64,000 bases of DNA. It comes from Siphonodentalium dalli. Taxonomy: Eukaryota; Mollusca; Scaphopoda; Gadilida; Siphonodentaliidae. Under the pieces are notes generated by a model. The model had not been told where the DNA came from. It did no database searches and worked only from the letters and a program-made list of their open reading frames with translations. Numbering within the stretch: position 1 is the first letter of the stretch; each line of letters opens with the position of its first letter. This document shows, piece after piece, positions 1 through 61,970 of the stretch. The DNA is taken from positions 111,083,195-111,147,194 of the forward strand of contig CP136065.1 in NCBI GenBank assembly GCA_032622095.1, read 5' to 3'. Position numbers and translations under genes: made by a program.

Positions 1-1118
1 ATTTGACGACACGGTTGGGTGGCCCACCCCAAATGCCCCTAGAAACACACCGACCCTCGCCCATCACCACCGAGGGTGCCATCTGAGGGGGTAAGCATGG
101 GGAATGGACCATTTCGAGAACGGTAAAGATTTCGACCGATTTGACGGCATGGGTGCGTGACCCGCCCCAAATACCCCCTAGAAACACCCCGACCACACCA
201 TCACCCACGGTGGTGCGTCCCCGAGGGTGTGAAAATGGGATATGGACCATTTTCGAGAACGGTGATGATTTCGACCGATTTGACGGAATGGTTTGGTGGC
301 CGCCCAAAATACCCTTTAGAAACACTCCGATCCACACCCATCACATCCGGGAGTGCCATCCCGAGGATGTGAACATGGGGATTGGACCATTTTAGAGAAA
401 TGTAAGGATTTCGACTGATTCGACGGCATGGGTGGGGCCCCGTCCCAAATACCGCAAAGAAACATCCCGATCCCCCCTATCACCCGAGGGGGTGAAAATT
501 GGGTATGGACCATTTTCGAGAACGGTAATGATTTCGACCGAAATGGTTGGGTGGCCCGCCCCAAATACCCTTTAGAACACTCCGACCCACACCCATCACC
601 TCCGACACCACGACCCAAATACAACAACACCAGAGGGTGACACCCGTGGGTGAACATGGGGTATGGACCATTTTCGAGAATAGTTAGAATTTCGACCGAT
701 TTGATTACATGTGTGGGTGGCCCACCCGAAATATCACTAGTAACACCCCGACGCCACACATCCGCTGGGGTGCCACCCCGAGATGGGAAAATAGGGTATG
801 GGTCATTTTCGAAAAGAGTAAGGTTTTCTACCGATTCGACTTCACAGGGGGGGGGGGGGGTCCACCCCAAATACCACATAGAAACACCCCGACCCCACAT
901 ATCACACCAGGGGTGCCACGGTAAGAATTAAGACCGATTTCATGGCATGTGTGGGTGGCCCCTAGAAATACGCCGACCCCCGACGCATCAACCCGAGGGG
1001 GTTCCACCCAAGGGGGTGAACATGGAGTATGGACCATTTTTGAGAACGGTAAGGATTTCGGCTTTCCCCAAATACCCCCATATGAACACCCCGATACCAC
1101 CCATCACCCCGGGGGTAT
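1..1118. repeat. ~140-bp minisatellite array (about 8 diverged units)
   Basis: The landmark GATTTCGACCGATTTGACGG recurs near 128, 267, 407, 529, 688, 824, 924 and 1049, giving spacings of 100-159 bp and mostly about 140. Each unit also carries a GGACCATTTTCGAGAACGG word and a C-rich AAACACCCCGACC stretch. Units differ by many indels, so the array is old. Open frames on both strands follow the repeat and shift between units, so none is a credible gene. The array starts before the window edge, so its true left end is not seen. A 14-base G run sits at 847-860. Confidence 0.9.
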
Positions 1119-7100: not shown

Positions 7101-7560
7101 TGGAACGACCTAGAATGGAATTTCGTCTACTTTTCTCCCTATCTTTTAACCCCTCCCCTACGCAGGTCAGGTGATTCGCCCCGTTCGTCATACCTACCGA
7201 AAATACTCCTGTGACAAATGGAACCGACGGATATGAAGTATATGGTGCTAAACATATTAAAATGGCGACTAGGAGTGTTTTTTATTATTGAGTTATAACA
7301 TGTAAATTGCCTTTTTACGAGATATAAATCCCATTTTGAGCTCTCTTGGGATCCCATGACAAATATCGTGTCTGTGCTACCATGCGTGTCAATTAGCTTA
7401 ACCGTTTCAAAGAAAAAAAATATCATTTTTGATGTTTTTGGTTTGCCGGAAAATATTTGTTTTGCCACACAGCTTGGAATCGGCGACGACATAACGTCGC
7501 CTACTTATTCTCCGTTTTCTTCAAACCCCTGTCACGGCCGCATCCCTGTCAATTTTGCGT
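1119..7560. repeat. 549-bp satellite array (about 12 units)
   Basis: The word GATCCCATG(A/G)CAAATATC recurs at about 1323, 1872, 2421, 2970, 3518, 4067, 4616, 5165, 5703, 6252, 6801 and 7350, a period of 548-550 bp with one 538-bp unit. Units are about 90-99% alike by eye. Each contains a short palindrome GACGATATATCGTC (or a near-palindromic variant with GACGACATATCGTCGTC) and the phrase GGAACGGTCTGGAACGACC. Recurrent 79-codon (+) and 105-141-codon (-) frames lie inside every unit. They have no recognisable domain, and the reported starts drift with small indels, so I do not call genes. The last unit decays after ~7440. Confidence 0.95.
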
Positions 7561-8040
7561 TGGAATTCATTGTTGATACTCATAACGAACCCCTTCCGTC
7601 GACAACGTTGCGTTTTTCCGAATAAAGTGTCTCGTTGCCTGGATATCGAACCCGGAACGGGCCGGAACGACCCAGAACGGATGGAAAAACGGCGAATTTC
7701 GAGTGACAATGCAAATTTTACTCGGGAGAAAACAATTTCAGGAAGTTTTTTTTTCGAAACGTTAGTTAGGTCGAGTTTGATGCTCTCCATCAACGGTTTT
7801 TTTTTTCAGTCTGCCATTGTTCGTTCCGGAACGAGTAGGTACTTCCACCCTCGTTCCGGACTTTCGGACCCCCGGAACGACCGGAAAAAATAATTTGCCG
7901 CCAAAACGGTTGCCAGTTTGTCACACTTATTTTTCGAGTTCTTTCAGATTCCGTCGAAACCCCGAAGTTGGAAGTTCTGTATATACTTCCTTGGTTACAC
8001 CATGGAAGTATAATTATTAATAAAAGATTATTGAATCAAT
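7561..8040. repeat. Non-tandem flank related to the 549-bp unit
   Basis: The phrase GGAACGGGCCGGAACGACCC at ~7656-7675 matches the GGAACGGTCTGGAACGACC block of the 549-bp units, but the surrounding sequence is single-copy here. Further on, CGTTCCGGAACGAG (about 7830) and CTCGTTCCGGAC (about 7850) form an inverted pair. This may be the terminus or the unexpanded remainder of the element from which the satellite arose. No coding region is supported. Confidence 0.45.
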
Positions 8041-11047: not shown

Positions 11048-12738
11048 CATGCAACCACCATGTTTAGGATTCTGCACACAAAAATATATAGGAAAATTTG
11101 AAGCGATCTGGCAAAGGGCGATATCACCCTTCCATGACCACCTACATTTTACTCGCGCGTTCACCGTTCTGCAAAAAAAACTATATGGGAAAATTTGAAG
11201 CGATCTGGCAAAGGGCGATATCACCCTTCCATGACCACCTATTTGCGCATTTAGGATTCTGCACACAAAAATATATATGAAAATTTGAAGCGATCGGGTA
11301 AAGGGCGATATCACCCTTCCATGACCACCTATTCGCGCATTTAGGATTCTGCACACAAAAATATATAGGAAAATTTGAAGCGATCTGGCAAAGGGCGATA
11401 TCACCCTTCCATGTCCACCAATTCGCGCGTTTAGGATTCTGCACACAACCATATATAGGAAAATTTGAAGCGATCTGGCAAAGGGCGATATCACCCTTCC
11501 ATGACCACCTATTTGCGCATTTAGGATTCTGCACACAAAAATATATATGAAAATTTGAAGCGATCTGGTAAAGGGCGATATCACCCTTCCATGACCACAT
11601 ATTCGCGTGTTTAGGATTCTGCACACAAAAATATATAGGAAAATTTGAAGCGATCTGGCAAAGGGCGATATCACCCTTCCATGACCACCTATTCGCGCGT
11701 TTAGAATTCTGCACACAAAAATATATAGGAAAATTTGAAGCGATCTGGCAAAGGGCGATATCACCCTTCCATGACCACCTACATTTTACTCGCGCGTTGA
11801 CCGTTCTGCTAAAAAAAACTATATGGGAAAATTTGAAGCGATCTGGCAAAGGGCGATATCACCCTTCCATGACCACCTATTCGCGCGTTTAGGATTCTGC
11901 ACACAAAAATATATAGGAAAATTTGAAGCGATCTGGCAAAGGGTGATATCACCCTTCCATGACCACCTATTCGCGTGTTTAGGATTCTGCACACAACCAT
12001 ATATAGGAAAATTTGAAGCGATCTGGCAAAGGGCGATATCACCCTTCCATGACCACCTATTCGCGCGTTTAGGATTCTGCACACACAAATATATAGAAAA
12101 ATTTGAAGCGATCTGGCAAAGGGCGATATCACCCTTCCATGACCACCTACATTTTACTCGCGCGTTGACAGTTATGCTAAAAAAAACTATATGGGAAAAT
12201 TTGAAGCGATCTGGCAAAGGGCGATATCACCCTTCCATGACCACCTATTCGAGCGTTTATGATTCTGCACACAAAAATATATAGGTAAATTTGAAGCGAT
12301 CTGGCAAAGGGCGATATCACCCTTCCATGACCACCTATTCGCGTGTTTAGGATTCTTCACACAAAAAATATAGGAAAATTTGAAGCGATCTGGCAAAGGG
12401 CGATATCACCCTTCCATGACCACCTATTCGCGCGTTTAGGATTCTGCACACAAAAATATATAGGAAAATTTGAAGCGATCTGGTAAAGGGCGATATCACC
12501 CTTCATGACCACCTATTCGCGTGTTTAGGATTCTGCACACAAAAATATATAGGAAAATTTGAAGCGATCTGGCAAAGGGCGATATCACCCTTCCATGACC
12601 ACCTATTCGCGCGTTTATAATTCTGCACACAAAAATATATAGGAAAATTTGAAGCGATCTGGCAAAGGGCGATATCACCCTTCCATGACCACCTATTCGC
12701 GCGTTTAGGATTCTGCACACAAAAATAGGAATCTGGCA
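11048..12738. repeat. 90-bp satellite array (about 19 units)
   Basis: AATTTGAAGCGATCTGGCAA repeats every 90 bp (for example 11199, 11289, 11379, 11469). Each unit carries the near-palindrome GGGCGATATCACCC; one unit (~11940) has the perfect form GGGTGATATCACCC. A longer variant unit with CATTTTACTCGCGCGTT recurs near 11142, 11779 and 12148. Because 90 is a multiple of 3, long 30-residue-repeat frames stay open in several frames on both strands (for example 11015-11764 minus). I read these as a by-product of the period, not genes. Confidence 0.95.
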
Positions 12739-23903: not shown

Positions 23904-24195
23904 AGACACGTTGGCCTTGGTGGTGCGTATCCTGTGAAAATATCTCCACCCGTCAAAAACCGCCACAAACAGAAAGAACATCAAAATGTAGATAGACTTT
24001 GTCCGTATACAAATAAGAAATATCGCATAAACAGTATGTTATGGTCATATTTTTGACCATTGTTATGTAAACAACAGCATAAAAAGTTACTTTTCTGGTG
24101 TTTGTTTATATTATGACGGTAAACATAAAGAGCGTTCTTTGTTGGTAAATACCTGATATTGAATTAATTAAGAGCGTTTATGCCAACAAATACTT
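23904..24195. mobile_element. Truncated TTAA element, family K
   Basis: TTAA (23900-23903) is followed by AGACACGTTGGCCTTGG. Then comes the family K body: CACCCGTCAAAAACCGCCAC, AACATCAAAATGTAGATAG, ATATCGCATAAACAGTATG and TAAAGAGCGTTC. It is in reverse order relative to 30787-31280. Homology stops near 24190, so the second terminus is missing. Confidence 0.7.
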
Positions 24196-24389
24196 CGCCA
24201 CAATAGGTCAGAATACCGCTGCAAAGGTTGAACAAATTCAGAACACACATCCCCTTAACTATATGAAAGAAAAAAAATCAAAAAAACTGTTTGTTTTTTC
24301 AACTGCTGAAATTGTATCAACATGTGCTAAATTATCCAATAAATGTTGCATCGATTTTTCAAATATATCTATGAAACTGGTGAAATTTA

Positions 24390-26103
24390 CTATAAACGAA
24401 ACGGCTTACGCACTTTAAACAATTTGGATTCAGAGAAAATCACTCGACAACACATCCCTTAATGCATCTGTTAAATCATGTTGCTGAAAACAACAACAAA
24501 AAGACCAGATACTCGACTCTAGCCATTTTTATCGACATATCCAAAGCATTTGACACGATTAGCCATGATATACTGCCTCAAAAACTTGACCACTACGGCA
24601 TTAGAGGAATTACTAAAACCTGGTTCAAGAGCTATTTAGAGGGGAGGAAACAATATGTTGAAATCGACAATAAAAAATCGAACATGCTCGATATCACCTG
24701 TGGTGTGCCTCAAGGATATTTACTAGGACCCATTCTATTTCTTATATATGTCAATGATATGCCCAATAGCACATATTTAAATCTCCTCTCTTTTGCGGAT
24801 GATACGACTCTTCATATATCTGGCAACAACAATCGGCAATTTGAAAAGAAAGTTAATTCGGAATTGATCAAAATCCATCATTGGTGTTGTAGCAACAAAT
24901 TAGCAATTAATGCATCCAAAAGTAAATACATGTTAATACATCGCACCAGTAACGATTTCAAATGGAATAATCTTAAAATAAAATTGAATGACAAGCCCTT
25001 AACGCGAGTAGGCGATGCGAGATCTGAGCAATCTCTAAAATTTCTTGGCATTATAATTGATGAGAATCTCACCTTTAAACATCACATATCTATGCTAAGT
25101 AAAAAGATCCAATGTATTATATTCCATAAATAAGGTAAAAACATACTTCTCTCTAATCCACAGTCATCTCATCTATGGTATGTCAATTTGGGGTCATGTC
25201 GACACAGGAGGCACTATCTTTAAACAGAAAAGAGCAATCAGAATTATATCCAATAAATCATATAGAAGTAATACAGAACCCATTTTTCTGTCTGAAAATA
25301 TTTTGAAATTCCACGACTTATATCAACTACAAGTTGCAACGTTTATTTTTGACTGGACAAGAGGAAATCTTCCAAAATCGTTCAATGAATCATTTGATTA
25401 TACAACTGCCAATACCCGACAGGCATGCAATCTAAAATCATCAACTCCTAGAACTGCTTTTAATTCTGTGTTACCTAAGCACACATTCCCTGATATATGG
25501 AACTCATTGGATAAAAATAACAAGATAATAACCTTTCGAAATAGATTTAAAAAGTCATTGATAAAAAGTTATATATCGCGATACTCGATCGTCACCAATC
25601 AAATGCAACAGTTTATTTTGTCAAGATTGTACAGACGCGTCAAATGCACGCCATGAGCTCCGCCATTGAAATATATATACTTGCTATTAAAAAAAACCTG
25701 GTATGTTCACCTTACATTTTGGCTGAAAGATACGCAAAATTAGTCTTTACAATCAACCGAGTAAGAACAAAATGAAAAGCAACATTAAAAGACCCTTTCT
25801 CTGATCCTGTCTAAAGACATCATACTTCAGCCAGACTCCGCACCTATGATAAAGTAATATTGAGCCCCGTGCATGGTAAAACCGTCATGCATGTACACAA
25901 TGCAATCAGTTTGGATACACCATTCCGTCATTTTAAAATATTATCCCACTTCATGTTGTTTTATGACTTGATTTACATATATAGGGTTGGCAGGAAGACG
26001 GCCCATTTGGACATGCCGCTCCTGTACAATATACCTGTTTCTTTTTGAATATTGTATTGTTATTATATGTCCATATATATTGTACAAATAAATACTACTA
26101 CTA
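24390..26103 (+). mobile_element. 5'-truncated non-LTR retrotransposon (Jockey/CR1/L2-like)
   Basis: Reverse-transcriptase homology begins near 24395 (KQFGFRENHSTTH in frame) and runs to a 3' untranslated region with GGTTGGCAGGAAGACGGCCC. It ends in AAATAAATACTACTACTA at ~26103, which looks like a short 3' tail repeat. A similar GGCAGGAAGACAG phrase is in the 3' UTR of the LINEs at 37895-38157 and 48127-48400, so they are related. Truncation at the 5' side is typical of LINE insertion. Confidence 0.85.
24396..25656 (+). pseudogene. LINE reverse transcriptase, C-terminal part, frameshifted
   Basis: The frame 24462-25133 holds RT motifs: FIDISKAFD (catalytic Asp25), YGIRGITKTWFKSYL, GVPQGYLLGP (Ser to Tyr after Gly) and FADDTTL (catalytic Asp pair at 113-114). 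A frameshift near 25125-25135 moves the frame to 25180-25656, which carries the post-RT region (WGHVDTGG, QKRAIRIISNKSYRS). RT copies RNA into DNA at the nicked target. The N-terminal half of RT and the endonuclease are absent. Confidence 0.85.
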
Positions 26104-37860: not shown

Positions 37861-37894
37861 AAACAAAAAGAGTATGTTCCATGTAGGTGCCTTT

Positions 37895-38157
37895 ACATAT
37901 GAACCACTCTTCGTACCATCGCCCTAACATAGCCTATTAAAAGACACAGTCTGCACACGATGAACGTAACCCAAAAAACAATCAAATTCATTCTGCCATC
38001 TACATCATATAATCTGTCGTCACATTCAGGGGTGGCAGGAAGACAGTCATGACTATATCACCCCTAGCAATTTTCATGTGTAGTCTTAATATTATATTTA
38101 TTTGTAATTGTACTTTCCATGTGTGTATATTGTAAATACAATTATCCTATCCTATCA
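37895..38157 (+). mobile_element. 3'-UTR fragment of the same LINE family as 48127-59787
   Basis: CGTACCATCGCCCTAACA, CAGTCTGCACACGAT, GGCAGGAAGACAGTC, ATATCACCCCTAGCAAT and the tail AATTATCCTATCCTATC match, in order, the reverse complement of 48127-48400. The copy is about 260 bp, 5'-truncated, on the plus strand, and ends in the same (TATCC) tail. Confidence 0.88.
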
Positions 38158-46190: not shown

Positions 46191-48591
46191 TTAAAGAAAA
46201 ATATGTGCCTTTCCAATATCCCACTACTGGCCACAGTAATGATAGATCGTGCACAGATATGATATTGTTCTCATAATCAGATTAGGTTTGAAAATTCCAA
46301 GGACACTGGGCTGGTGACCACGTTAGAAAATGTGATGCTCTTCATGCACATAACATTTAGAGTGAAGCGCCGTAATTCAAAATCCCAAAGACACTAATCC
46401 ACATGCAAACTGAGGTGTTCATTTTCGAATATTTACCAGACAAACTGGGAGTGTCATAAAGTTGAGGTAATTTTTAATTACATGATATAACATATGATAT
46501 AACAACTCCCGTATATTACAGTGAACAATAAATCAGTTTATATTTCAGTCTAATAAAAACAAATATTAAAATTCTGCCTGCTCGATAACTCATCGTGATC
46601 CATGTATACATAAACTGCACCTTTCAAAAACGTGTACTTTACAGTATTGCAATTAAATTGGTTAAGAGTAACTCATCACAATAATAGCAAACAGAAATTC
46701 GATACATATCTTGTAAAACAAAATCGAATTAGAAATATCAGGAATACTTACTTTACGTATTAAGTTTCATGTAAAAATGGTACTAAAATCAACCATCAAC
46801 AACTACTTAAATCTCACACATGAGTACATGGAAGTTTTTAATAATGATAGTTAATCAGGAACCATATTATGGCAAATATATATGTTCTCTTTAATTAGGA
46901 CTAGCGTCTAATCCCACTACTATATGTTATAAGATTGCAGATGTACACCCATAACACCAAGGCATTTCGGTGTGTTCAATTTTCAACCATATAGCTGTTG
47001 GTCCTTGTTTAAATGTTTCAGCCAATGAGTATCAGATCCCAATGCTGGTCATCATATCTGAAGTGTAGATCTGCAATCAAAAGGTGGATTTTGAGAACAA
47101 CCAATAACTCTTTTTATCAACTTTATGCTTTGACAACACAGCCATGGTGTCAATTAAACCCATTGCCCTCATGACATGCCCCTTTTCCAGGGTAGTGGAG
47201 GTGTGTGTGATATCAAATATTTTGGAATACTAATAGAACTACTTTATTCCACACCATGCTGCATTGTGTGTGAATTGTTAGACAATAAATATAGGCACTC
47301 CACTCTCTCCCTTCATTTGTTTCTGACATTCACTTAACAAATATGCCAGCATTAACTCGTTCCATACTCTATAAATAAATAAATTTATAAGTAAAAAAAA
47401 TGGCCATGTTGAACTTATTTGAACATTTCCCATGAATAAATGCTTCAGTAGTCGTAGCATGTGAATTATATTATCGTCATACCAGTGTCTGCTAATTTAT
47501 CTACTCAGTATAGAAATTTTGAACTTCTAACATGACTAACTATATTTTCCTTGTAAATTGAGTAACAACCACTATTTGACCTATGCATCCCAATACCACT
47601 GGTATAGATACATTAGTGAATTTAGCCTGAGAAGAGGAGCTGTATTTGTCTTACATTCTGTATTACCCACCCTGGTTGAAGTCAGTTGAAGAATACATCA
47701 TATGGCAAGGTTCACAAACGTACCGATATTGGATCATAACTATAACAATTCGAAACCAAAAGCTACAGACCAATGTTCTGGAAAAACAAGACGAAATAGA
47801 TGTCCTAGAAGGAAGAACTGAGGGCCATGGACAGGACGAGTACTGTAAAAGTTAGTCTCAACTGAATGAAATTAAAGAACAATGTTTGCCTTTCCCATAA
47901 CCCCAACATTGCCACAATAATGATAGTTCAGGAACGAATCTGACAATGATATAGCCATTCACTCCCTTCGTTTGTTTCTGACATTCTTATAGCGAACATG
48001 CCAGCATTGAATAACCCTTTCCACACACAATAAAATAAATTTCTAAATACAACAAAATGACGATGTTGAACTTAATATCCGAACGTGTCCAATAAATTGA
48101 TACTTCAGCACTTGTATTATCTGTATAGGATAGGATAGGATAATTTTATTTACAATACACATACATGGAAATAAATAAATATAATATTAATAGACTATAC
48201 ATGTATATTGCTAGGGGTGATATAGTCATGGCTGACTGTCTTCCTATCACCCCTGGATGTAGTGACAGATTATATGATGAAGATGGCCGAATTAACTTGA
48301 TTGTTTTCAGGTTACGTTTATCGTGTGCAGACTGGGTTTTTAATATATAGGCGTTGTTAGGGCGATGGTACGAAAAGTGGTTCATATGTATGTATGTATG
48401 GGTACCTACTTGGTCGATATAATGAATGATTACTATGAATATACATGTGTGAGTGGAACCGAGTAGGAATAATGTGAGTGAGGTTTTGGGAATTTTTTTT
48501 GTTTCTTCTTTTATTTTTCAATTAACATGCATACTAGAGTGAATTTTGTTTTGTATTGTTTGTTTGTTTTGTTTATTTTGTTATCAGAAAA

Positions 48592-51500
48592 TTATGTATC
48601 GTTTGTGCAATCAGGGCATCTTCGGTTTTTGCATCGCACGCTCGCTGAATAGGTATTAATGATATCCGTTTTCAAACGTTTTCGGAACACATGTCTTGAT
48701 TGTTTAGAGGTATATTTACTTTCTAGGGAATTCCACATAAAGGGGAATGAATGGTATGGGAGAACTTTAGAAAAAGAGATGGTCCTGAATTTTTTTTGTA
48801 CTATAGGATTAGGTTGTCGTCTATTTGGTTCTGCTCTCTTGTCATACATACCAGAAAAAGACACCGGTAAGCGATCGTAGTACCAATCATGCATGAAAAT
48901 GGATGTATGTAAATCTATTTTAAAAATGTTTTCTTGTTTGAAAAGAGGATCGGTGTGACTTCTATATTTTTTGTTACATATAATTCTGATGGCTCGTTTT
49001 TGTAATAAATATAGTTTCTTCACTGCCGATACATGTCCCCATATTTGGATGCCATAAACTAAGTGGCTTTGAATTAGGGCGAAGTATGTTTTGAGAGCCT
49101 TGCTCGGGAGAATTTTTTTAACTTTATTAATGCAATAAATTGCATGTGCCATTTTTGAGCATACAATAGAAATGTGTTTATTAAAGGTCAGGTTTTCATC
49201 TATATGGATACCTAAAAACTTGGCAGACGATTCGTTCCGCATGTTCCCTATCCGTCGAAGTTCGGCTCCATTGAGATATATTTTAATTGTATTCCATTTT
49301 TTGTCATTGTTTTGTGGATGCAAGAGCATATAATTGCTTTTGTTAGCATTGATGGCTAGTTTGTTGCAGCAACACCAGTCAGATAGATTTCTTAATTCGT
49401 TATTGACATAACTTTGGATTAACGCTTCATTTTGTCCACTGGCCATAAGGGTTGTATCGTCGGCATATGATACGAGATCCATAGTAGTTGAATTTGACAT
49501 ATCGTTCACGTAGAGGAGAACAATTATGGGCCCGAGTAAGGACCCCTGAGGAACACCACATGATGTTTTAATGAGATTTGACTTGCTTCCATTGAATTCT
49601 ACGTATTGTCTCTCATTGAGATAGCTTCGAAACCAGTTGTTTGCCATGCCTCTAATTCCATAATGTTCAAATTTTGTAAGTAAGATTTCGTGGTTTATTG
49701 TGTCAAAAGCTTTGGACAGATCAATAAAAAGGGCTACGGTGGAATCTTTCGTGGGCTTGTCGTTATTTTTCACAACATGATCCAGTAGATGAATGATGGG
49801 ATGAAAAGTTGAATGGTTTGGGCGAAATCCGTACTGATGTTTAAATAAGATGTTCGATTCATTAAGAAAATCAACTAAACGTTTTTGCATGAGTTTTTCG
49901 AGTAGTTTAGAAAATGCGGGAAGAATGCTTATTGGACGATAATTGTTTATATCCCCATTGTCACTATTTTTCGGTATTGGTACAACTTTAGCTATTTTCA
50001 TTTTGTTGGGAACATGACCTTGTTTAAACGACAAGTTGAATATATGCTTTAATGCTGGTGCTACAGAAAATATGGTTTCCTTCATCAGTTTTGTAGATAT
50101 TCCATTGAAGTCACTGCTGGTTTTTCCATTCATTGAGTAGCAAGTTAAAATAACCTCTTGGATTGTGGTGGGCGTAATATTTAGCTCGTTGCTTTGTCTA
50201 TTCGTTAAATAATCGAGGAAGTTTACATCTGTGTGATTTTCAATAAGTTCTGTGGTTTTTTGACCTATATTGGAAAAATAGTCATTAATTTTTTCAGCGA
50301 TAGTGTCAGGATTTGTAAACTGTATGTTGTTATCATGTAGAACATTCGGGTATCCGTCCGTATTTTGTCTCGTTTTATTGCACCTTTGAGGGTCTTCCAT
50401 GTTTCTTTTAAACTATGCTTATTCTTTTCTAATATTTCACAGTAATACATGCTTCTACTTTTCCGGATAAGTTTGTTATATAGTTGTCGATATTTGAGGT
50501 AGGAATTCGTATGGATGGAGGAAGGCGAGCTTAGTTTACGGGTATATAGTTCTTGTTTCTTAAGTGAAGATCTTATTAATCCGGTGGTCATCCATGGGTC
50601 GCGTTTGATGAATTTTTTGGGTATGTTTCGGGTAATGGGCGGAAAAGCTACGTAGTATGCTGTCAGATAGATATCCAAAAAGTTTTCGTATGCTTGATCT
50701 ACATTATTACAATCACAAACCGAATGGAAATTACACGATTTAAGAGTATTGTTGAATTTATTAATATTTTCTTGGGAAAAGTTTCGTCGGGGAGTGCGCA
50801 TGGTTTCATGTGGGGTTTTTAATCGGTTATGACCTTCGGTGTCAGTGAGAAATACCCCAAAGTGATCGACAAATCACATGTAACTATACCAGAGCAGTGC
50901 TCGTTTCGAAGATTATTTGTGTATATATGATCGATAAGGGTCGCTGAGTGATCGGTCATTCTTGTCGGTTTTGTTATCATGGGCACGAATCCTCGTGTGA
51001 ATACATTGTTTAAAAAGTCGTTTGTTTTATTGTGCGCATCGAAATTTAGTAGATCGATATTGAAATCACCGATTATATAAGTCTTATGATTTTTAATTAT
51101 ATCTAAGATTTCGTCGAATTTAGAGGCAAACTTGTCAAAGTCAGCTTTTGGTGCCGTGTTAGGTCTATAAATACATCCTATGATATATATTTCATGTTTT
51201 CCGAATTCAAGCTCAATGAACACCGTTTCAATAACATGTGGGATAAATATTGATAGATCGGGTCTATTTTTATACGTAATAGTGTCTCTTATGTAAATAC
51301 CAACACCACCCCTACCATCATCGTGATCAGGCCTTGATTTAAATTCTATGGGATGATAACCGGAGAGTATAAAGTCCGATGCTTGATGTATTTTAAATGT
51401 TTCGGTTAGCGCTATTATATCAAGATTGTTGTCATTGATTTTCATGTCACATAAAAGATTTTGTAAATTTTCAAAATTTGCATTGATGCTTCTGCAGTTA

Positions 51501-51722
51501 AGACCAAATATTGACAGTTTATTCTTCTAGACCAAATATTGACAGTTTATTCTTCTTGTTGAGAATATATTTTGCTTGTAAAGTTGAGAAGTAACGGCAA
51601 TTGTTTTTATCAAAAATGGACAAAGTTGGTTCTTCGTCTTCCTCCAGGCTAGCCCATTTGGCGGCAAGATCGAAATTAGGCGCTTCCCTAACCTCACTCA
51701 GTGTTACGTTATTTGTGGCCAT
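48592..51722 (-). pseudogene. LINE ORF2: AP endonuclease + reverse transcriptase, three frame lesions
   Basis: ORF2 starts MATNNVTLSEVREAPNF at 51722. The endonuclease follows (51445-50819: IALTETFK, RGGVGIYIRD, IIGDFNIDLL, DHSATLIDHIYTN). RT (50400-48592) has FIDLSKAFD (Asp227), HYGIRGMANNWFRSYL, GVPQGSLLGP and SYADDTTL (Asp314/315). The C-terminus has a CxxxxCPDC knuckle. Lesions are a 28-bp tandem duplication (51501-51556), one missing base inside the endonuclease SDH motif (~50866) and a slip near 50365. The apparent Met at 50400 is out of the true frame. RT itself has no stop, so this copy is fairly young. The protein nicks target DNA and reverse-transcribes its own RNA there. Confidence 0.9.
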
Positions 51723-51756
51723 TATGTGGTTTGATGATATTTGATATAACATATGT

Positions 51757-53934
51757 GCCCTTGTTCAAATTAGTTAGCATATACCCAGGGGGGGGGGGGG
51801 GTCTGCAAAAAAAATCCGTATATATGGCCGGGGTGGGTGGGTGGTACAGAGGCGGAAAAAATGGTGCTTGTAATTTTTTTCCAAAATGGGTTTTTTTCAA
51901 ACAATTTACAAGTACTGACCACGTAATGTTGTTTGTAAGCATGTTATTACCATGCTTGTTGGTATAGGGCTATTTAGGCAGTTAAAGTGACTCTTTAGCC
52001 TGAGATTTAGCAACATTCTGGATTTCACAGTATCCCGGACCACTTCACAGTGGACCACCGTATTAACGTTCAGGAAACTTATGATCAACGGAAGAAATAT
52101 TTAGTAACAAAATTAATATATTACCCAGTTGTATTCTCTGAATAAAAGTAATAAAACAAAACAACTCTTATCACAAATTGGATACTACATGGTGAATACT
52201 CAATTATGACTACTAGTAGATATCATTAACCTGATTGTTGCATAACATGAAATTGAAAAGGGTACACATGTATCTCATAAGTTTCTAATGTCTGAAATAC
52301 TGTCTTGTTCTGGCATGTAATCAAATTAATTTCTTCTGGTTATTTCTCATCTTGAATGATTGCTAGTAATGTTAATTTGCAACAATTATCCAAATAAAAC
52401 TGAATTGGTTATGATGAATGACATTACTGTTTACTGCTCAGACAATCCCAAATGAAGGTGACGCTATTCTCATTGAATTTCCGAACTTCATCTGGGAGCT
52501 TTACTGCTCAACAAGACGAAAATACTAATTGTATACTGTTATCACTTACAAATAGATGAACTGAAATAATGTGATGCATTCAGATGCATTGAGAAATGAC
52601 ATTCAATTCTTCATTCTGGTCTATCACCATACCAAACCACATCAAAATTTGACAACCGACACTTAACTTATATTGCAAAATCTTTGTATGGACTGAATTT
52701 CATAAAGTCGAACAGGGCCCATAACTCTGGTAGGCATTGGTGGTCACAACCCGCGATATTATGCATATTCGTCCCCCATTTCTGGTCCGTCACCATGCCA
52801 TTGGGCATCAAATATGACAACTGACTCTTGAGTTAAAATTCAAAATGTTTGTACGGACAGCCGGCTCGAGACGTCAACTATATACCCGCCGACTAATATC
52901 GGGTAGTATAATAACCATATATCTATGTGTATACCTAACCAAAAAACAATTCCCAGGCCTCCCCACCCCATCTCGTTGGATAAGACTAAAGAGTTCTTTG
53001 ATCATGCACATATAATTGTGGAACCCCTGACCTGTTTACCACTATTTACACTGGCCAGTGTTCTCTGTCAGACACACTCGATATATTAAGGCTATAATGG
53101 GGTCTAGGGCAATTTGTGACATAGTGTACCTATATACACAATGCTTAATTAATATTGTTGTTAGATACTGAAAACACCAGGAAACACATGGAGATACAGT
53201 ATATTTTTCGTTTTTCTGATCTGTGTTTACCAATTAGTAAGGCAGTTAACACAGTTATTGAATAACGGCTAAAAAAAACCTCTGAAATTTTGATAAAAAC
53301 ATGAAACAGGGGGGTGGGTCCCCAAAATTTTGGAGGAAAAAAATATTTTTTTTGCAAAAATGGGGTGGTGGGTCCCTCGAGGTCGGAAAAAAACTTTTTG
53401 GGCCCTATATGTGCAATTTTTTTCCAGACCCCCCCCCTGATATACCCGTGGTTTAAGTACGGTCTGCACACGACGTTGCACCTGAAAATAAATTTAGACA
53501 AGGTAAGATGCATTTTATTTTTCATGGGAAGAATTTTCTTTCGTGGGTACTTAACACTGTGAACTCGGGAAATTGATTGCAGTATTTCAAGTTGTTTAGG
53601 GGAAAGAGTTTTCGAATTGAATTTAAAGCTAAAAACAACGTTTATTTCTGTTAGTGACCACGGATTTTCCCAAGTTCACGGCGCGAATAACGAGGCAAAT
53701 TTCCATTTATAAGCTAAATGATAAGAATGGTATAAGTACTTTGGCATCATTTTGATCAGGTGAGCATTTATGGAAAAAAAATATGAATTGGGTGGGAACT
53801 GAGATATAAAGAGTCAGAGTATGTCGATACAGAGCAAAATAACAACAGCAATAAAGGTATTAAAAAGGACAAATTATGGTAAAAGTTCATGAAGTATGTT
53901 AGATTTGTGCAAAGATTAATATGTGTCTATAGAG
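51757..53934. other. Insert between LINE ORF2 and ORF1, left part; no gene
   Basis: AT-rich and low-complexity DNA with G runs (51788-51801) and a poly-A/G stretch at 53300-53420. One GGGCCCATAACTCTGG bivalve-type repeat phrase lies at ~52717. Overlapping frames on both strands at 53145-53562 reflect low complexity. No domain recognised. Confidence 0.5.
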
Positions 53935-54056
53935 CTGAGCGATGGGTGCTTTTGATGGGTGGTGCGTTTATATAATTTACTATTTAAATAATAGTTTACA
54001 CAATTTCGTATCATAGAAACACCATCTTTTTGGTCCATGGACGATTGATTAAAGAG

Positions 54057-54425
54057 AAATTATAAGTGTCTGTTAAGTAAGTTCTGCTAATTACTTAAAC
54101 TGAACCAGACGGGAAAGGGTGAATTTAAATTATCATGCGGATCAGCTATCAAAATTGAATAAGCAGTCAGTTTTGGCGCTTGCTGTACGAAAAATATTAT
54201 GAACGCACCCATCGTCATTGCGATGAACTATTGAACTCTGCAACAGAAATTATAAGTGTCTGTTAAGTAAGTTCTGTTAATTATTTAAACTGAACCAGAC
54301 GGGAAAGGGTGAATTTAAATTATCATTGAATAAGCAGTCGGTTTTGGCGCTTGCTGTACGAAAAATATTATGAACGCACCCATCGTCATTGTGATGATCT
54401 ATTGAACTTTGCAACATAATCTCGT
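54057..54425. repeat. Tandem duplication, ~190-bp unit
   Basis: Two copies of TATAAGTGTCTGTTAAGTAA...CTGAACCAGACGGGAAAGGG...GAACGCACCCATCGTCATTG start at ~54060 and ~54249. The second lacks ~20 bp (GCGGATCAGCTATCAAAA). An inverted relative of the GCACCCATC end lies at ~53945-53970. Confidence 0.8.
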
Positions 54426-55010
54426 GCGAAGAACGACCTCGACACCTGCAAGAGATGCTTGGCTAACTGATTTTGATTTTTTTTGTAGTTTCCGCGACGT
54501 TGTTCTTCGGATATTTATGACTTCACGCATGTTTGACATATCGAAGAAAGTATTATATTTATTAATTCCTCGCGGATTGTGTCTGGAATCACTAAAAAGA
54601 ACATTAAAACTTAAACATGTGCACCGTGGTATTCCACTTGGATTCACCAGTTTACTTTCTATTGTGAATGTGAGAATAACATGTTCAATTTTTGGAAGGC
54701 AAGTTGAACCAGCACAAATATGACAAATTTCATTGAGGTGATATAAATGGTCAACAGCTGGTCAAGGTAAGTTTCATTTATAGCATTATCCTTGAAAGTG
54801 TATGTGAGGGGGGGGGGGGCCCGCAAGTGACAAGTCCTGGATTACCTCTCCATGCATATTGTCACAACAAAAGTTACACAATTGCGGAAATTGTTTTGTA
54901 GGTAATTAGTTCCATTTTATTAAAAGTTTATTTATCTTTGAATGTTATACTGATATTTCAAAGCTTGTTCAAGTTCCAGGTATTCCTGTAAAAAGACAAG
55001 TTCTAAAGAA

Positions 55011-55120
55011 TGTGAATTCATAGCTGTGATTTACAATTTACCCAATCCAGAGTTAAATTTATGAATGTGAATTCATAGCTAAGATTTACAATTTACCCAA
55101 TCCAGAGTTAAATTTATGAT
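55011..55120. repeat. 55-bp tandem duplication
   Basis: TGTGAATTCATAGCT at 55011 and 55066 begins two near-identical 55-bp copies (GATTTACAATTTACCC, AATCCAGAGTTAAATTTATG). A cluster of (A/C)AAGTGATACC / AACTGATACC words follows at 55140-55215. Confidence 0.85.
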
Positions 55121-55230
55121 ATAGCTGCTTGGGTGCAGGACAAGTGATACCCAAACCAACTGATACTCTCGGAAAAAATTCAAGTGATACCTAATCTCGA
55201 TTCAACTGATACCTTCTTTTCGAGTCAACA

Positions 55231-55373
55231 TATCCAGACAGACATCCATAACAAGAATCCATATGACACCCACTGCAAGGAACATACTAGCTGCTTCAGT
55301 TCGTAGGCTTCTACTGTATGTTCCTTGCAGTGGGCGTCATACAAATTCCTGTCATGGATGTCTGTCTGGATAT
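55231..55373. repeat. Long imperfect hairpin (~57-bp arms)
   Basis: The left arm 55232-55288 (ATCCAGACAGACATCCAT... to ...CACTGCAAGGAACATAC) pairs with 55314-55372 with about 7 mismatches and a ~25-base loop. It could be a fold-back element or a transcribed hairpin. No terminal duplication is evident. Confidence 0.8.
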
Positions 55374-56424
55374 CAACATCCGAAACTAGTCACTTAGCCT
55401 TCCGATCTCGTTATTATAATAATACTATTAATAATCGATTCCTCAGTCATCACTACGACATATGATGATAGACATTTATGGGTTGGTTAATCATAAGTTT
55501 TATGTATTTATTATAAAAGGATCTAACTATTTGCACTGGTAGATATATGTAATAGTTTAAATACTAGTAATGGGGGGGGGGGGTGTGCAAACTTTTAATA
55601 ACCACTCATATGTAGTTGTACCGTTACCGTAGTATGCAATAGATATAATTAGTTCGGGGTGGGGTAGTCAAATGAATTTGAATTTTTTACATAATTTTCA
55701 GCCTGCTGAGATGAAATAACATTTCTCGATTATTTACCCTTATTTTCTTATGACCACTTGGTTAGGCAACACCAACTTCTTAAGTCTGGTTTACGAACAT
55801 GTGGGGAGAAAAAAAGGAGATGCAGGAAGGAAAAAAATTAAAATAAAATTAAAAAAAAAATCCCCCCCTCCCAATTTATATAAAGTAAATCATGGAATTT
55901 TACATAAATTTGACAAAAATTGTGAAATAATGTTTTTGAATGAAATTCTGAACCAAACAAGACATATCTTGTCATGAAATACATGAAAATATGGATCTGT
56001 GAATGATCATAAGCAGAACCGGGTGCGACAGCACATGAAAGTCAGTACTCTTGTAAACAATTTTGGGATTTTGTTTTAGTTTTTTTTTTGGGAAAAAAAG
56101 TTGTAAGAGGTGTTCGTAAACCAGACTCAAAAACTGGTGTCGGCTTACCATGACAAAAAAATGCTTGTATATGAGGCAATTCTGAGCTCGATTAAATTAT
56201 TCAATCCAAAATTGAACTGGTGGAATGGATGTCTTTGATGAAAACATCAGATGATCATCATTACATATTTAAAGCCAATCCACACTCCATGTATACATAA
56301 TTTATTACACCAAGGTGACCGACCATGCTATTTAAGATAGTGAAGGCAGAAAAAGATTCAATTGTCTAACTGTATACCATACATATCCCAGTTTTAGATA
56401 CATCTAAGACTAACTAAATTAAAC
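55374..56424. other. Intergenic stretch, no supported feature
   Basis: AT-rich with a G run (about 55573-55583) and poly-A tracts. ORF 55750-55977 (+) is lysine-rich because of the A runs, and I do not support it as a gene. Confidence 0.4.
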
Positions 56425-56605
56425 AAAAGCAGAACCACGGACAAACCCTCTGGACCCAGTCGGAAATATGGCCCGCCGCCATCCATCAGAAAGCTCTCGG
56501 TGAGAGCTTTCCGATGAATGGCAGCAAGCCACACCCCAACCACACTCCTAAAAGCCACCCATAACTCTGCCGTGGCTCAGGAGTCGATTAATTAGAGCAC
56601 CACTG
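56425..56605. mobile_element. Truncated TA-target fold-back element, family T
   Basis: CTGGACCCAGTCGG, GCCGCCATCCATCAG, CTCTCGGTGAGAGCTTTCCG and GGAGTCGATTAATTAG match, in order, the complete relative at 57244-57457. The right end CACCACTG is followed by TA. The left terminus is missing. Confidence 0.65.
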
Positions 56606-56709
56606 TACAATATGTTTATATGCTCATCATCCAGCTTGGTTTCATCTTAGCCACATTCAAATTTGGTAGCATGGTTTTCTGGACATGGAATTGTCTTACT
56701 TTAGCTTAA

Positions 56710-57036
56710 AGGCAAGGGCGGCGTTCGCTGCGGAATATTCATAATTGTTCAAATTGCCACTAACAGAAGAAATATCAAAACATGCAATTGCCAGACATAA
56801 TCAGCGGGTAACAGTATGGTAGTGTCGTCAAGACATACGATGGTGTATGTAAACAAGAGCCTGCTTATGTTACAGAAGTTTTGCTTCTGTTTAGTCTAGA
56901 TGACACAGTGCAATTCTATTGGTTAATCACACACAAGTGGCAACTGATATAAACGCTCTTTATTTATTTAAAAAATTTATGACGGAGGTTAATATTTTAA
57001 CAGTATATATACCCACTGCCAACACCGTCCGTATCT
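56710..57036. mobile_element. Internally deleted family K element
   Basis: TTAA (56706-56709) then AGGCAAGGGCGGCG. The right end CCGTCCGTATCT is followed by TTAT. Internal phrases GAATATTCATAATTGTTC, GGTTAATCACACACAA and AAACGCTCTTTATT match family K. At 327 bp it lacks the central ~160 bp and is more diverged than the other copies. Confidence 0.72.
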
Positions 57037-57243
57037 TTATTTTGCAACTCAAATAATTTTGTTTCTGGAAATTTGTCTTTTTGACTTAGACGATGGCTTT
57101 GTTGATTGTTGATCGCAAGGTGAGAATGCCGTTTCCTCATATTTAGGTTGTTCCATTGAGAGGTCTTTACATATTAGCAATATGGGTGAAGGGGGAGGTG
57201 GCATTACTTGTTATAATTAAAATATAGTGCATATACTGTTATA

Positions 57244-57457
57244 CAGCAATGCTCCAACCAATCGACCCCACAACCACACCAGAACGATGGGCAACTCTCC
57301 AGAACCCAGTCGGGAGTATGGCCTTCCGCCATCCATCGGAAAACTCTCGTCGAGAGCCTTCGGATGAATGGGCAACCGGCCACACCCCCGACCAAATCCC
57401 GAAAAATCACCCACAACTCCGCCGCAGTTAAGGAGTCGATCAATTAGGGCATTACTG
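57244..57457. mobile_element. 214-bp TA-target fold-back MITE, family T
   Basis: TA precedes CAGCAATGCTCCAACCAATCG. The right end CGATCAATTAGGGCATTACTG is followed by TA, giving inverted ends and a TA duplication, as in Tc1/mariner-type elements. The centre is a strong hairpin (CCATCCATCGGAAAACTCTCG against CGAGAGCCTTCGGATGAATGG). Opposing ~60-codon frames at 57204-57443 are a result of the palindrome. Confidence 0.75.
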
Positions 57458-58574
57458 TATGGTACCTGGATATCACTGAATTATTATATATTAGTAAGAG
57501 TATCATACATCTAATATGAAAATAGTGAAACGTATATATTCAAACACATTATGAAATTCCGCATAATTATACATAATTTCGCTTCCATTTTTTGAATTTG
57601 ATATAGATTCAGTCGCAGCATTAGTATACACATTTCATTACCATTCATTGAAATTGGGTTTACTCATTCTATCACATCACATGAAGGTTTAGCACAGTTA
57701 TACATGGATTTGTTCTCCAATGTTATCGCAGTATGCTCTACTCTGAGGTTGTGACTAAGTTAATGCCACAGTTTATTGGATATATATTATACATAAGTGC
57801 ATTGTTTATATGCATACATGTATGTTTTATTTTTCCTGCCAGATTATAACTATATTAATATTATATAGTTACGATCGGATAAAAAAGAAAAGAAAAAAGA
57901 ACATGTATATATTAATTTACTTGATGCATTTATACAGCAAAAAAGATGACTCAGTATTAATGACGCAGTTGATTATATACATATATATATATTATATATA
58001 TATATATTATACATAAATGTTTATATATTAAATTATTCCTGCCCGATCATAACTATATTATATATATTTATGATTGACCAGTAACATAACAAGTATATAT
58101 TAAATTTGCATGATGCATTTATATATCTAGTGCACATGTATCTGCGTGATATCAAGGGTGAGGTCACAGTGTGTGACGTTGTACATGTACATACATGGAT
58201 CAGATTGAGCTGTTTGTCCATTCTTATTGTGTTTTCTGAACTGCAATATGAGTGCTCTTGAGTGAAAAATGATTGTGAAGGGTTTAATTAAAGCAGAATT
58301 CACTCTATCGTTATCATTATGTCATAATTGGCACTATCATTTGGCACCCTGGAGCAATCAAGAGCAGTACCGAGAAAAAGTTAAGGAGCGCTGTTACATG
58401 TACATGTATTAGAGAAATGTTGCACATATACCCATATACAGTTATTCATTTAGATAATTAGGATATTTGGATTTGTTCGAGTATTTAACAAGTTCGCACA
58501 ATGGTGCGATATATGAGTTTGTTGATAAACCTATTTGGTACTCCGTAGCAAAAATTTGCAAATATTTACATTAT
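57458..58574. other. Intergenic, TA-rich; right part of the insert in the LINE
   Basis: Runs of (TA)n lie around 57980-58012, and similar TATATATTATAC blocks recur at 57780-57870 and 58030-58070. ACATATGT at 58575-58582 also occurs at 51749-51756, the other side of the insert, and could be an 8-bp duplication. It is palindromic, so chance is possible. No gene. Confidence 0.4.
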
Positions 58575-58620
58575 ACATATGTAATCATGTTTGTGGTTAA
58601 TATTTCAATAGTTCACTTTG

Positions 58621-59578
58621 TTAAACATCATTAAGGGTTTTGATCTGTTTGATTTTCTTGTCTGGACCAGTGTATTTAATGTATATTTTCCCTCCAACAG
58701 ACCATGAGTCATCGACCCTAGCAAGCTCTTTAGCTTTCTTCATGAGGGACACATTAATGTCCGTAAGGTCTTCCTTGATCACACGCCCGGTTCCTTTTAG
58801 GTTATTTCTCTCTTTAATTACAGCATTTTTCATTCTCCTGGATACAAATTTGCAGATAATACTTCTGGGGTTTGTCTGGCCCTTTCTAAATTTTCCAATT
58901 CGGTGCGCGATACTTATGTCTACTTGTTTCATTGGAATTGACAACTTCTCGTTTATTAATTTCACACATTTCTTTTCACATTCATCAAGACTTTCCTTCT
59001 CGCTGTCATCTTCCAGTCCAAATATCCTTATACTTTCTTTTCTTGTCTGTTGTTCCAGATGGGTTGTTTCTGTCACTTAACTGATTAACTTCTGCCTTAA
59101 GTGCCTTAATTTCTGAATCCCTGTCTACGGCCTCGAGCTCCATTTTCTTCATGTTGTTATCTAGCTCATCCATTCTCACTTCCACATCAAACACCCGTCC
59201 ACAGCATTCATCTTTTACTTTCTCCACTTTCTCGTGAAAATCTGTTTTTAATTTGGTAACAATTTCTTCCAAGTTTCTCTGTTTTTACTAAGGGTTCCAG
59301 ACTTCTTTCAAAGTCGGTCTTTGTGACCATCATGTCTAATTTAGTATTTATTTGAGCTAAAGCCTTCTCCATGGAACTGTTATGTAGGGCATCTGAATCC
59401 ACAATGGATGATTTATCTGAGGCAAAGTTTATTTTCTGTTGTGCACCTTTATTAGTAAATTGAGTCTGATGTTTTCATTTTCTTACTTTGAGCAGATCAT
59501 CTGTTCTTGTTGTGTGGATTTTTCGCTGGTGCTAGATGTGGAATTCGCTGCAGGACGTTTCTTATCTGGCCCAGGCAT
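58621..59578 (-). pseudogene. LINE ORF1 protein (coiled coil + L1-ORF1-like RNA-binding region), frameshifted
   Basis: ATG at 59578 opens MPGPDKKRPAANSTSSTSEK. After a slip near 59485 the frame continues INFASDKSSIVDSDALHNSS and MEKALAQINTKLDMMVTK. After ~59280 a coiled coil follows (VEKVKDECCGRVFDVEVRMD, MDELDNNMKKMELE). After ~59060 comes the RRM-like/C-terminal part (RIFGLEDDSEKESLDECEKK, AHRIGKFRKGQ, RSIICKFVSRRMK, NNLKGTGRVIKEDLTD). This layout is that of LINE ORF1 proteins that bind the element RNA. About 315 codons, three lesions. It lies upstream, on the same strand, of ORF2 across the 6.8-kb insert. Confidence 0.82.
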
Positions 59579-61970
59579 TCGTTAATAGATTTCGTAATTG
59601 ACACGAAGTTGTGCAATCCCGTTTGAACTGTGTATATGTCGCTTTATCAAACTTACTTCATTCTATCGTAATAACTAGCCGATTATAGACATATTCATAA
59701 TAGATAAGTGATCTTAGTGTGGTGCCGTTATAAAATGGATTATTTGATTTTTTCCCACTACGCATTTAGTCCGACATCTTTGATACCATTATCTGTATTA
59801 TATTATCGCCATACCATTGTCTGATAATTTATCCACTCGGTATAGAAATGGAGTATTTATTGTAAGTTGAGTTCAACCACTATTTAACCTAAGCATCCTC
59901 GTGTTATGGATATATCCAGAAGACAGTGAATTTAAGCTATCTGGAGAAGAGGACATGTATATGGCTTACATTCTATATCACCACCTTTAATTAAGAGGGT
60001 TGGAGATTGCACCATACGGCAAGGGCCACAAGAGAAACGATATGGGGATCATAAATATAAGAATTAGACTAGTTATTAAGTTAATGGTGGGGGACTATAA
60101 CCACATTGTCATGGATTTCAGCCATCTTTGTCACCAAATACTTTGTATGTTCCCTGGGCATCTCTCAGAAATCTGGAACCAATACAAGACGAAATGTCTC
60201 GTAGAAGGAAGCACTGTGTGGTCATGTACAGTATGAGACTGTATAATGTAAATGACAGTCTTGACTCTACCAAATTAATGAAAACTATTTGCCTTTCCAA
60301 AATCCCAACATTGTCCACAATAATGCGAGATCATGCACAAATATATTGTTCTGATAATCAGATTAGGATTGAAACTTCCAACTGGACAGTGTGCTGATGA
60401 CCACGTTAGAAAATGTTCTGCTCTTCATACACATATGTGTTACATTGTGTAAAGCGCCGTAGTTCATAATCCCATAGAAACTGTAATACACATGCAAATT
60501 ATGTGTTTCATTGTCAAATATTTACCGGTACCATACACATTGGTTGATTGTTTTTGGACCACATGTCAATTGTTCTATTTTTTAATTGCATGATATAACA
60601 CTAAAATTACATTAAATTACAGTGAACAATAAAGCAGTTTATATTTCAGTCCAATGAAACATTAAAATTCAGCCTGGTCGCCAATTCATTTTTGATTGAC
60701 CAACTCATAATCCATGTTTAAATAAACTGCACCTTTAAAAACTTGTAATTTACAGTACTTACCCTTTCCAGTTATGAGTCAGTCATAGATTCCACTACTA
60801 ACTTTTACACAAAATATCAATGAAATTAAATATACTTAGTTTATGTTCTGTAAAATGGTACTAAAAAGCAATCAAAAACTACTAAAATCCCATACAAATG
60901 GCAGTATCTAATAATAATTAGTCAGGAACCATATTAAGGCAAATAGTTGTTATGTTTCTCTTTAATTACTACTAGCATATATTCTCTCCCACTACTATGT
61001 GTTGTCAGATTGTGCACATCAATAACACAAGGTCATTCTGGTGTGTTCCATTTTCAACTCTACAGCTATTTGTCCTTGTTTAAATATTTCAGTCAATGAT
61101 TATCAGATCTCAATGTTGGACATCACATTACATGTGTATATATTTGCAACCAAAAGGTAGATTGTAATAGTTTATAACTATTGTTACAAATATATGTTAA
61201 TCAACACAGCCGTGGTGTCAATTAGTGGTGCCCCATTGGGTTGTGGGGGTGTGTAATGGATGGAATGTTAAATAAAGACTACAGTTTATACTGATAGAAC
61301 TACTTTATTCTGCACCATGCTGCATTGTGTGTGAATAGACAACAAATATAGCCATTCGTTCCCTCCATTTGTTTCGGACATTCATTTAACAAACATGCCA
61401 GCATTTAACCATTTCCATACAAAATAAATTAATTTGTAGATACATGACCATGTTGAACTTATTATCTGAACATGTCCCATGAATTAATGCTTCTGTACTT
61501 GTGATATCTGTATTATGTTATAGAATTGTCTGCTAATTTATCCACTCAGTATAAAAAAGGAGTTTAGAACTTCCAACACAACTAATTATATCTCCATTGT
61601 AAATTGAGTAACAACCACTATGGAACCTATTCATCATAGCATGGTATATATCCTGCAGACACGGACTTTAAGATATCCGGAGAAAAGGCGCTGTCTGCGG
61701 CTTACATTCTATATTACCCACCTTGGTTGAAGCGGGTTGGAGATTACACCATATGACAAAAGCCACAAATGAACCTATATGGGGTCATAAATAGAATTCG
61801 TGACCATAAACTGCAGACATATCTCCACCGACTAGTTGATAAAGATGGGGGACTATAACCTTTATGGCATGGATTTCAGCCATCAAAATCTTTGTATCTC
61901 TGGGCATCTCTCAGAGGAATCTGGAACCAATACAAGACGAAATGTCTGTCGTAGAAGGAAGTAATGCGGG

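Follow-up and report, generated by a model that had tools for sequence, protein, structure and literature searches.

A scaphopod LINE with a long intrinsic spacer between its two open reading frames, and a possible shorter RNA for ORF2

A 64,000-nucleotide stretch of Siphonodentalium dalli contig CP136065.1 (assembly GCA_032622095.1, positions 111,083,195 to 111,147,194; the window, below) contains a degenerate long interspersed nuclear element (LINE) whose two open reading frames, ORF1 and ORF2, are separated by 6.9 kb; about 5.2 kb of this distance is the element's own sequence. Comparison with other copies and related families suggests a lineage of two-ORF LINEs that carry roughly 5-7 kb of non-coding DNA between the ORFs and may make ORF2 from a shorter RNA of its own, a reading based on sequence comparison to which we give a little less than an even chance. 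Non-coding inter-ORF spacers on the 5-kb scale are unusual in LINE copies and raise the question of how ORF2 is expressed; in human L1, the best-studied LINE, the ORFs lie 63 bp apart (passages of PMC5860796). The open-licence literature, as far as searched, yielded no LINE described as having a long inter-ORF spacer, and one may still be in print.

The limits of the element are set by a target-site duplication. The 11-mer ATTATCTGTAT occurs in the whole 64-kb window only at 48116-48126 and 59788-59798; dinucleotide shuffles contained 0.09 matches on average, and none of 100 shuffles contained two. The 11-mer is common genome-wide (2530 and 2343 matches), and the empty site is therefore the stronger proof of a single insertion. 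The left flank (47949-48126) aligns to 61346-61513 of a sister repeat unit and the right flank (59790-60211) resumes at 61505-61961 of it, so that the flanks are contiguous there, with an overlap of about the length of the duplication. The interrupted 1.7-kb repeat unit is degenerate and matches another unit over 1674 columns at 72%. The 11-bp repeat bounds one LINE insertion, 48127-59787 on the minus strand, within this unit. An earlier note on the window had proposed that the duplication splits a 1.7-kb unit, with a LINE 3' tail touching its left copy and ORF1 just inside its right copy. The shuffles and the empty site bear out the duplication, the (TATCC)n tail on the minus strand begins directly at the left copy, at 48127, and ORF1 occupies 58621-59578. 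Here ORF1 falls into three aligned pieces and ORF2 (48592-51722) into four, so that the ORF1 of 151 amino acids given in the note is only the C-terminal part.

Other copies were found by searching the genome with an ORF1 part (45 matches from the best 40 of 82 first-look candidates) and with the start of ORF2 (41 matches from the best 40 of 922). Only the best candidates were scored in these searches, and assembly gaps may hide copies. Six copies (A-F) were cut out for comparison with the window. The match between copy A and the window extends from the 5' untranslated region (UTR) through ORF1 and the spacer to ORF2 in pieces of 93-98% identity, and the sole large difference is that copy A lacks 51786-53439. 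Its ORF2 frame is open for 1057 codons from stop to stop. Copy F has an inverted 5' part, and copy B has foreign sequence in ORF2.

After duplicate pieces and other families had been removed by eye, this family's share of the 45 ORF1 matches was 22 places. At 15 of them an ORF2 junction, defined as a 20-mer with up to 2 mismatches, lies downstream on the same strand, ten times at 3.3-5.6 kb and five times at 9.1-36.8 kb, distances that start at the end of the matched stretch and thus sometimes short of the end of ORF1. At none of the 22 places compared is a junction nearer than 3.3 kb. The other seven have none within 60 kb downstream, and three of these (L028-L030) have no ORF2 in the 1.8-2.8 kb downstream, L028 having been checked by DNA match only. 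The earlier note had assigned the ORF1 at 58621 and the ORF2 at 51722 to the same LINE. This link stands, since other copies keep both in the same order and orientation, and no genomic copies were found that would place the two in different families. Its expectation that uninterrupted copies join the ORF1 stop to the ORF2 start is borne out at none of the 22 places. Moreover, all ten of the ORF2 copies without an ORF1 match that were examined stop aligning inside the spacer, at ten different points, as expected if the spacer belongs to the template. About 5.2 kb of the 6.9-kb spacer is intrinsic to the element.

The only large interruption is the segment 51786-53439, which begins with CAGGGG, ends with CCCCTG and has ATATACC on both sides. 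It is absent at this site from copies A-F (letters compared for A-D) and belongs to an abundant repeat with 2626 first-look candidates; among the 39 other long matches listed, 36 extend nearly to both of its ends. The comparison shows that this 1.65-kb inverted-repeat transposon is a later insertion into the spacer just before ORF2. The earlier note had treated the entire 7 kb between the ORFs as an interruption, with ORF1 and ORF2 normally adjoining and 51760-58575 nested between them. Its view holds for the transposon, which is truly present, but not for the remaining 5.2 kb or so, which stands at the same place in other copies (in copy A at 93-98% in pieces), and other families have long spacers of their own. 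Genomic copies thus rule out a nested insertion of the whole 7 kb, refuting it for about 5.2 of the 6.9 kb, and we regard this view as almost certainly wrong. It is also very improbable that two elements, one with ORF1 and the spacer and the other with ORF2, lie side by side by chance. The synonymous divergence of the two parts does differ twenty-fold between subfamilies, as such an arrangement might lead one to expect, but a single duplication flanks the whole, truncated copies pass from ORF2 into the spacer without a break, and the identical junction recurs in unlinked copies, on which ground two unrelated neighbours were rejected. A coding spacer was rejected as well: spacer matches have no codon periodicity (chi-square 0.3-3.6, compared with 70.8 for the ORF1-holding match; frames not corrected for indels), and no long frame is kept in all copies, although frames of about 100 amino acids partly recur around 5.1-5.3 kb of copy A. 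Dispersed repeats occur in the spacer, and C-type copies have a tandem array there as well; in copy C (from L005) this occupies 3848-5414 and consists of units of about 143 bp that vary between C-type copies.

Long spacers recur outside the window's own family (family 1). In family 2 (C6:53.02 Mb), ORF1 and ORF2 are 53% and 65% identical in amino acids to copy A, with a spacer of 4.9 kb; in family 3 (C7:6.80 Mb) the values are 54%, 66% and 7.2 kb. Family 4 is represented by a pair of near-identical copies on C7, with 60-61% identity over a partial ORF1, 64% in ORF2 and a spacer of 5.15 kb (L044), and its ORF2 frame is open over 1063 codons in both copies. At four family 2 places common to two match lists, ORF1 is followed by ORF2 at about 5.0, 5.5, 10.1 and 13.0 kb, as obtained by subtraction. 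The spacers of different families have only a dispersed repeat and short weak matches in common. Since they are mostly unrelated, the long-spacer architecture is older than the spacer sequence. A related ORF1 at L045 (50-64% amino acid identity) has no ORF2 within about 9 kb and neither supports nor contradicts this. Seven family 2 copies on several contigs (L100-L104, L106, L107) have identical upstream sequence beyond the end of the L023 match, and represent either a subfamily with a different spacer or duplications. Two ORF1 copies at G000 C4:135900597 and C4:135910010 have equal scores and lie 9.4 kb apart on the same strand, possibly as a duplicated element.

The element would move as one RNA, from the AGATGGCGG motif via the 5' UTR, ORF1, spacer and ORF2 to the 3' UTR, probably copied by target-primed reverse transcription from the (TATCC)n tail. 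One-RNA movement is suggested by the common 5' and 3' ends, the target duplications at some copies and 5' truncations that fall at many different points of the spacer. Copies A-E begin at AGATGGCGG, one or two bases ahead of the motif; similar motifs, TAATGGCGGC and AAGATGGCGA, lie ahead of ORF1 in families 2 and 3, where the 5' ends were not delimited. Human L1 has a YY1-type 5' end, which the motif of the element resembles. Border duplications could be tested in 19 of 21 copies (L069 is without flank, L066 without tail in the cut piece), and exact ones of at least 11 bp were found in three: the window (11 bp), L057 (28 bp) and L022 (37 bp). The duplication of L018 is imperfect, with a 15-bp exact part 43 bp from the border, and an 11-bp match of copy C, away from the borders, was not counted. 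Copy C is 99% identical to copy F and also to L022, so movement was recent. The ORF2-only copy seen at L059 and L113 lies amid an inverted repeat, with flanks that are near reverse complements.

Truncated copies bear on the expression of ORF2. A pattern census found 72 copies with a 20-mer about 100 nucleotides (nt) before ORF2, compared with 3 for the reversed control pattern. Of the 72, 54 also have a second 20-mer, which lies upstream of the first at a distance of about 250 bp, and 18 do not. Five of the 18 extend past the upstream 20-mer, which has changed letters, and one (L072) stops about at it. The ends of the twelve that were counted all fall in a stretch of 77 bp that lies 126-202 nt ahead of the ORF2 ATG, eight of them at 145-180 nt; under uniform placement in the gap, such a cluster has P = 4e-5. 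In family 2 the count started from 35 of the 40 listed ORF2 matches, and 20 ends remained after setting aside 7 with shared flanks, 6 running through and 2 at the edge. With the interval of 145-180 nt fixed beforehand, 5 of these 20 ends fall inside it (P = 0.004 if the hazard is constant). Moreover, 5' ends are identical to the nucleotide in three pairs of copies despite different flanks (P = 0.003).

These ends are most simply read as the start of an RNA. ORF2 would then most likely be translated from a shorter RNA rather than from a 10-kb bicistronic one, with a start about 150-175 nt before the ATG, and the conserved last 0.8 kb of the spacer would drive this short RNA. Copies A and C differ in this part of the spacer at 137 of 761 aligned sites (18%), compared with 61% of ORF1 synonymous sites, so that it is either constrained or has had a different exchange history. 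A fuller version, which we consider somewhat unlikely, would split expression in two: the long RNA would serve as template and ORF1 messenger, a second RNA from a spacer promoter about 150-175 nt before ORF2 would make the reverse transcriptase (RT) and sometimes be copied itself, and the spacer would be the region where ORF1 and ORF2 modules are exchanged.

Several points weigh against a separate ORF2 RNA. If L072, which stops at the edge of the gap, is counted, P for the family 1 cluster rises from 4e-5 to 3e-4. In family 1 the test of the interval came after the interval had been noticed, and the fixed interval was tested in family 2 only. Part of the cluster stretch is A-rich, and stops of the reverse transcriptase could pile up there. 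The cluster is closely followed by an acceptor-like AG in both family 1 and family 2, and splicing products could therefore explain it as well. The spacers share little between families beyond dispersed repeats, and thus no common promoter is visible. Finally, 16 of the 19 copies tested, including all four of family 2, have no exact border duplication of at least 11 bp, and some 5' ends may therefore not be original.

The acceptor-like AG belongs to an alternative in which the spacer would be an intron, with the full-length RNA as template and a spliced form in which ORF2 comes to lie close to ORF1 or to the cap. Judged from sequence signals, it is the main rival, though we consider it unlikely. 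At 98 nt from the ORF2 ATG, A-type copies of family 1 have TTTTCAG and C-type copies TTTACAG; family 2 has TTACAG at 106 nt, the only TTACAG of its 4.9-kb spacer; the one near ORF2 in the copy C spacer is likewise the only one. TTACAG, a motif chosen after seeing the sequences, also occurs within 200 nt of ORF2 in family 3 (19 nt before the ATG) and family 4 (159 nt). Three donor-like GT sites of copy A, two in ORF1 and one 55 nt past its stop, are at aligned places in copy C, and the distance from the clustered ends to the AG downstream of them is about 27-104 nt in family 1 and 40-70 nt in family 2, a range in which a lariat branch could stop the reverse transcriptase. However, by a simple score the acceptor-like sites of the families rank only 16th to 43rd among some 180-270 spacer AGs, the best acceptor near ORF2 in family 4 is another site (rank 5), and donors after ORF1 rank 10th to 114th. 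Spliced L1 RNAs leave genomic retrocopies, the SpIREs of PMC5860796, which are the trace expected of a spliced spacer, whereas at the 22 ORF1 places compared no ORF2 junction is closer than 3.3 kb; this lack is weak evidence because full copies are few. A bicistronic full-length RNA, from which ORF2 would be reached by reinitiation or internal entry, seems to us unlikely too, slightly more so than splicing. The intrinsic spacer would then be tolerated ballast that collects repeats, and the clustered ends would be reverse-transcriptase stops. Human L1 does translate both ORFs from one RNA, and the dispersed repeats of the spacer, the tandem array of C-type copies and the partly A-rich cluster fit such a picture. 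It is less easily reconciled with the 82% identity of the last 0.8 kb between subfamilies whose ORF1 synonymous sites are 61% different, with family 2 insertions that have different flanks and the same exact 5' nucleotide, or with a distance of about 5 kb, which far exceeds the 63 bp of human L1 (passages of PMC5860796).

Whichever RNA makes ORF2, the two parts of the element have separate histories. Between copies A and C, the synonymous and nonsynonymous divergences (dS, dN) are 1.26 and 0.137 in ORF1 (317 codons), and 0.06 and 0.012 in ORF2 (1046 codons). In 250-column steps, identity is 66-81% over the 5' UTR and ORF1, 42-81% in the spacer and 94.4-99.6% from the start of ORF2. This comparison shows that the ORF1-spacer block was exchanged as one between subfamilies, with the breakpoint at the ORF2 start. 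As to the route, a complete ORF2 with its own leader could be copied without ORF1, which would make the ORF1-spacer and ORF2 blocks exchangeable modules. Metcalfe and Casane (passages of PMC4120745) describe reticulate ORF1 evolution and propose a source of hybrids, namely the insertion of a copy truncated ahead of ORF2 into the gap between another element's ORFs. What this proposal needs would be supplied by a 5-kb spacer together with copies that have ORF2 only. Long-spacer LINEs may offer a physical basis for the ORF1/ORF2 reshuffling inferred there from trees. With 5-7 kb of non-coding DNA between the ORFs, ORF2 expression also becomes directly testable. In repeat annotation, elements of this kind would easily be broken up into distinct 5' and 3' families, a risk that the earlier note had recognised.

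The proteins place the element among LINEs with an apurinic/apyrimidinic endonuclease (APE). ORF2 of the window and of copy A has the Pfam domains PF03372 (APE) and PF00078 (RT), and its PDB sequence matches are headed by LINE-1 ORF2p and R2; for RNase H there was no Pfam match, which is an absence of match only. ORF1 matched no Pfam family above the cutoff. An AlphaFold model made from six ORF1s (mean pLDDT 62.5) has a long helix, an RRM-like part and a C-terminal part. In VIA-align its top five rows are human L1 ORF1p (Z 8.9-7.9; next row 5.8), and in Foldseek alone L1 ORF1p is at rank 23 (E 0.056). By its predicted structure, ORF1 is an L1-type (type II) protein of coiled coil, RNA recognition motif (RRM) and C-terminal domain (CTD). 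Type II ORF1 has been reported for L1, CR1, L2 and R1 clade elements (passages of PMC4120745). An ORF2 with APE and RT, a target duplication and 3'-anchored copies with variable 5' truncation are all features of APE-type two-ORF LINEs. The element does not have the poly(A) tail and short inter-ORF spacer (63 bp in human L1) of the L1 clade; its tail consists of short tandem units, (TATCC)n. CR1/L2 lineages have 3' ends in short tandem units and not poly(A). We classify the element as a degenerate two-ORF APE-type LINE that, by its anatomy, is probably CR1/L2-like.

Table 1. Features of the LINE copy in the window
Feature	Position	Strand	Basis or remark
Left target-site duplication, 11 bp	48116-48126	.	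Shuffles, sister-unit alignment
Right target-site duplication, 11 bp	59788-59798	.	Shuffles, sister-unit alignment
3' UTR with (TATCC)n tail at left duplication	48127-48591	-	Same tail in copies A, C, D, E, F and family 4 (L044)
ORF2, APE endonuclease and reverse transcriptase, four aligned pieces	48592-51722	-	Pfam, alignment
28-bp tandem duplication within ORF2	51501-51556	-	
Inter-ORF spacer, 6.9 kb, about 5.2 kb intrinsic	51723-58620	-	In copy A, 93-98% identity in pieces
ATATACC, left target duplication of nested transposon	51779-51785	.	
Nested non-autonomous inverted-repeat DNA transposon, CAGGGG...CCCCTG	51786-53439	.	Absent here from copies A-F
ATATACC, right target duplication of nested transposon	53440-53446	.	
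Best-conserved non-coding spacer part, adjoins ORF2	53440-54226	-	82% identity between two subfamilies
Counterpart of 5'-end cluster of ORF2-only copies	53509-53585	-	Mapped to window by eye; in copy C 126-202 nt before ORF2 ATG
Second spacer copy of dispersed 219-bp repeat	56422-56606	-	
Dispersed, partly palindromic 219-bp repeat, spacer copy	57242-57460	-	Window self-matches, genome search
ORF1, L1-type (type II) coiled coil-RRM-CTD by predicted structure, three aligned pieces	58621-59578	-	Start codon read by eye
5' UTR; 5' end has AAAGATGTCGG (59771-59781), with AGATGGCGG in its place in copies A-E	59579-59787	-	

The 219-bp partly palindromic repeat has 3208 first-look candidates genome-wide and occurs also in the spacers of families 2 and 3. 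Elsewhere in the window, older fragments of related LINEs were seen on the plus strand: an ORF2 piece at 24185-25587 (37-59% identical in protein) and a 3' end at 37894-38156 (83% identical in DNA). A tandem array of units of about 549 bp, some 95% alike, occupies 1118-7569, and a 90-bp satellite with about 17 copies, 90% alike, lies at 11061-12727.

Among known systems, the CR1/L2 lineages of the Jockey superfamily with type II ORF1 are similar in their APE and RT ORF2, their coiled coil-RRM-CTD ORF1 and the reticulate history of ORF1 relative to ORF2. A spacer of 5-7 kb is not mentioned in the passages of PMC4120745 consulted, and in the present element it is close relatives that have exchanged parts, the spacer included. 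Human LINE-1 has the two ORFs and the ORF1p fold in common with the element, but differs by its 63-bp inter-ORF spacer and poly(A) tail (passages of PMC5860796), where the scaphopod element has about 5 kb and (TATCC)n. Gastropod non-LTR (long terminal repeat) families, including Kiri, are likewise invertebrate LINEs whose ORF1 and ORF2 trees differ in pattern; unlike here, the passages of PMC11203168 describe no long inter-ORF spacer for them.

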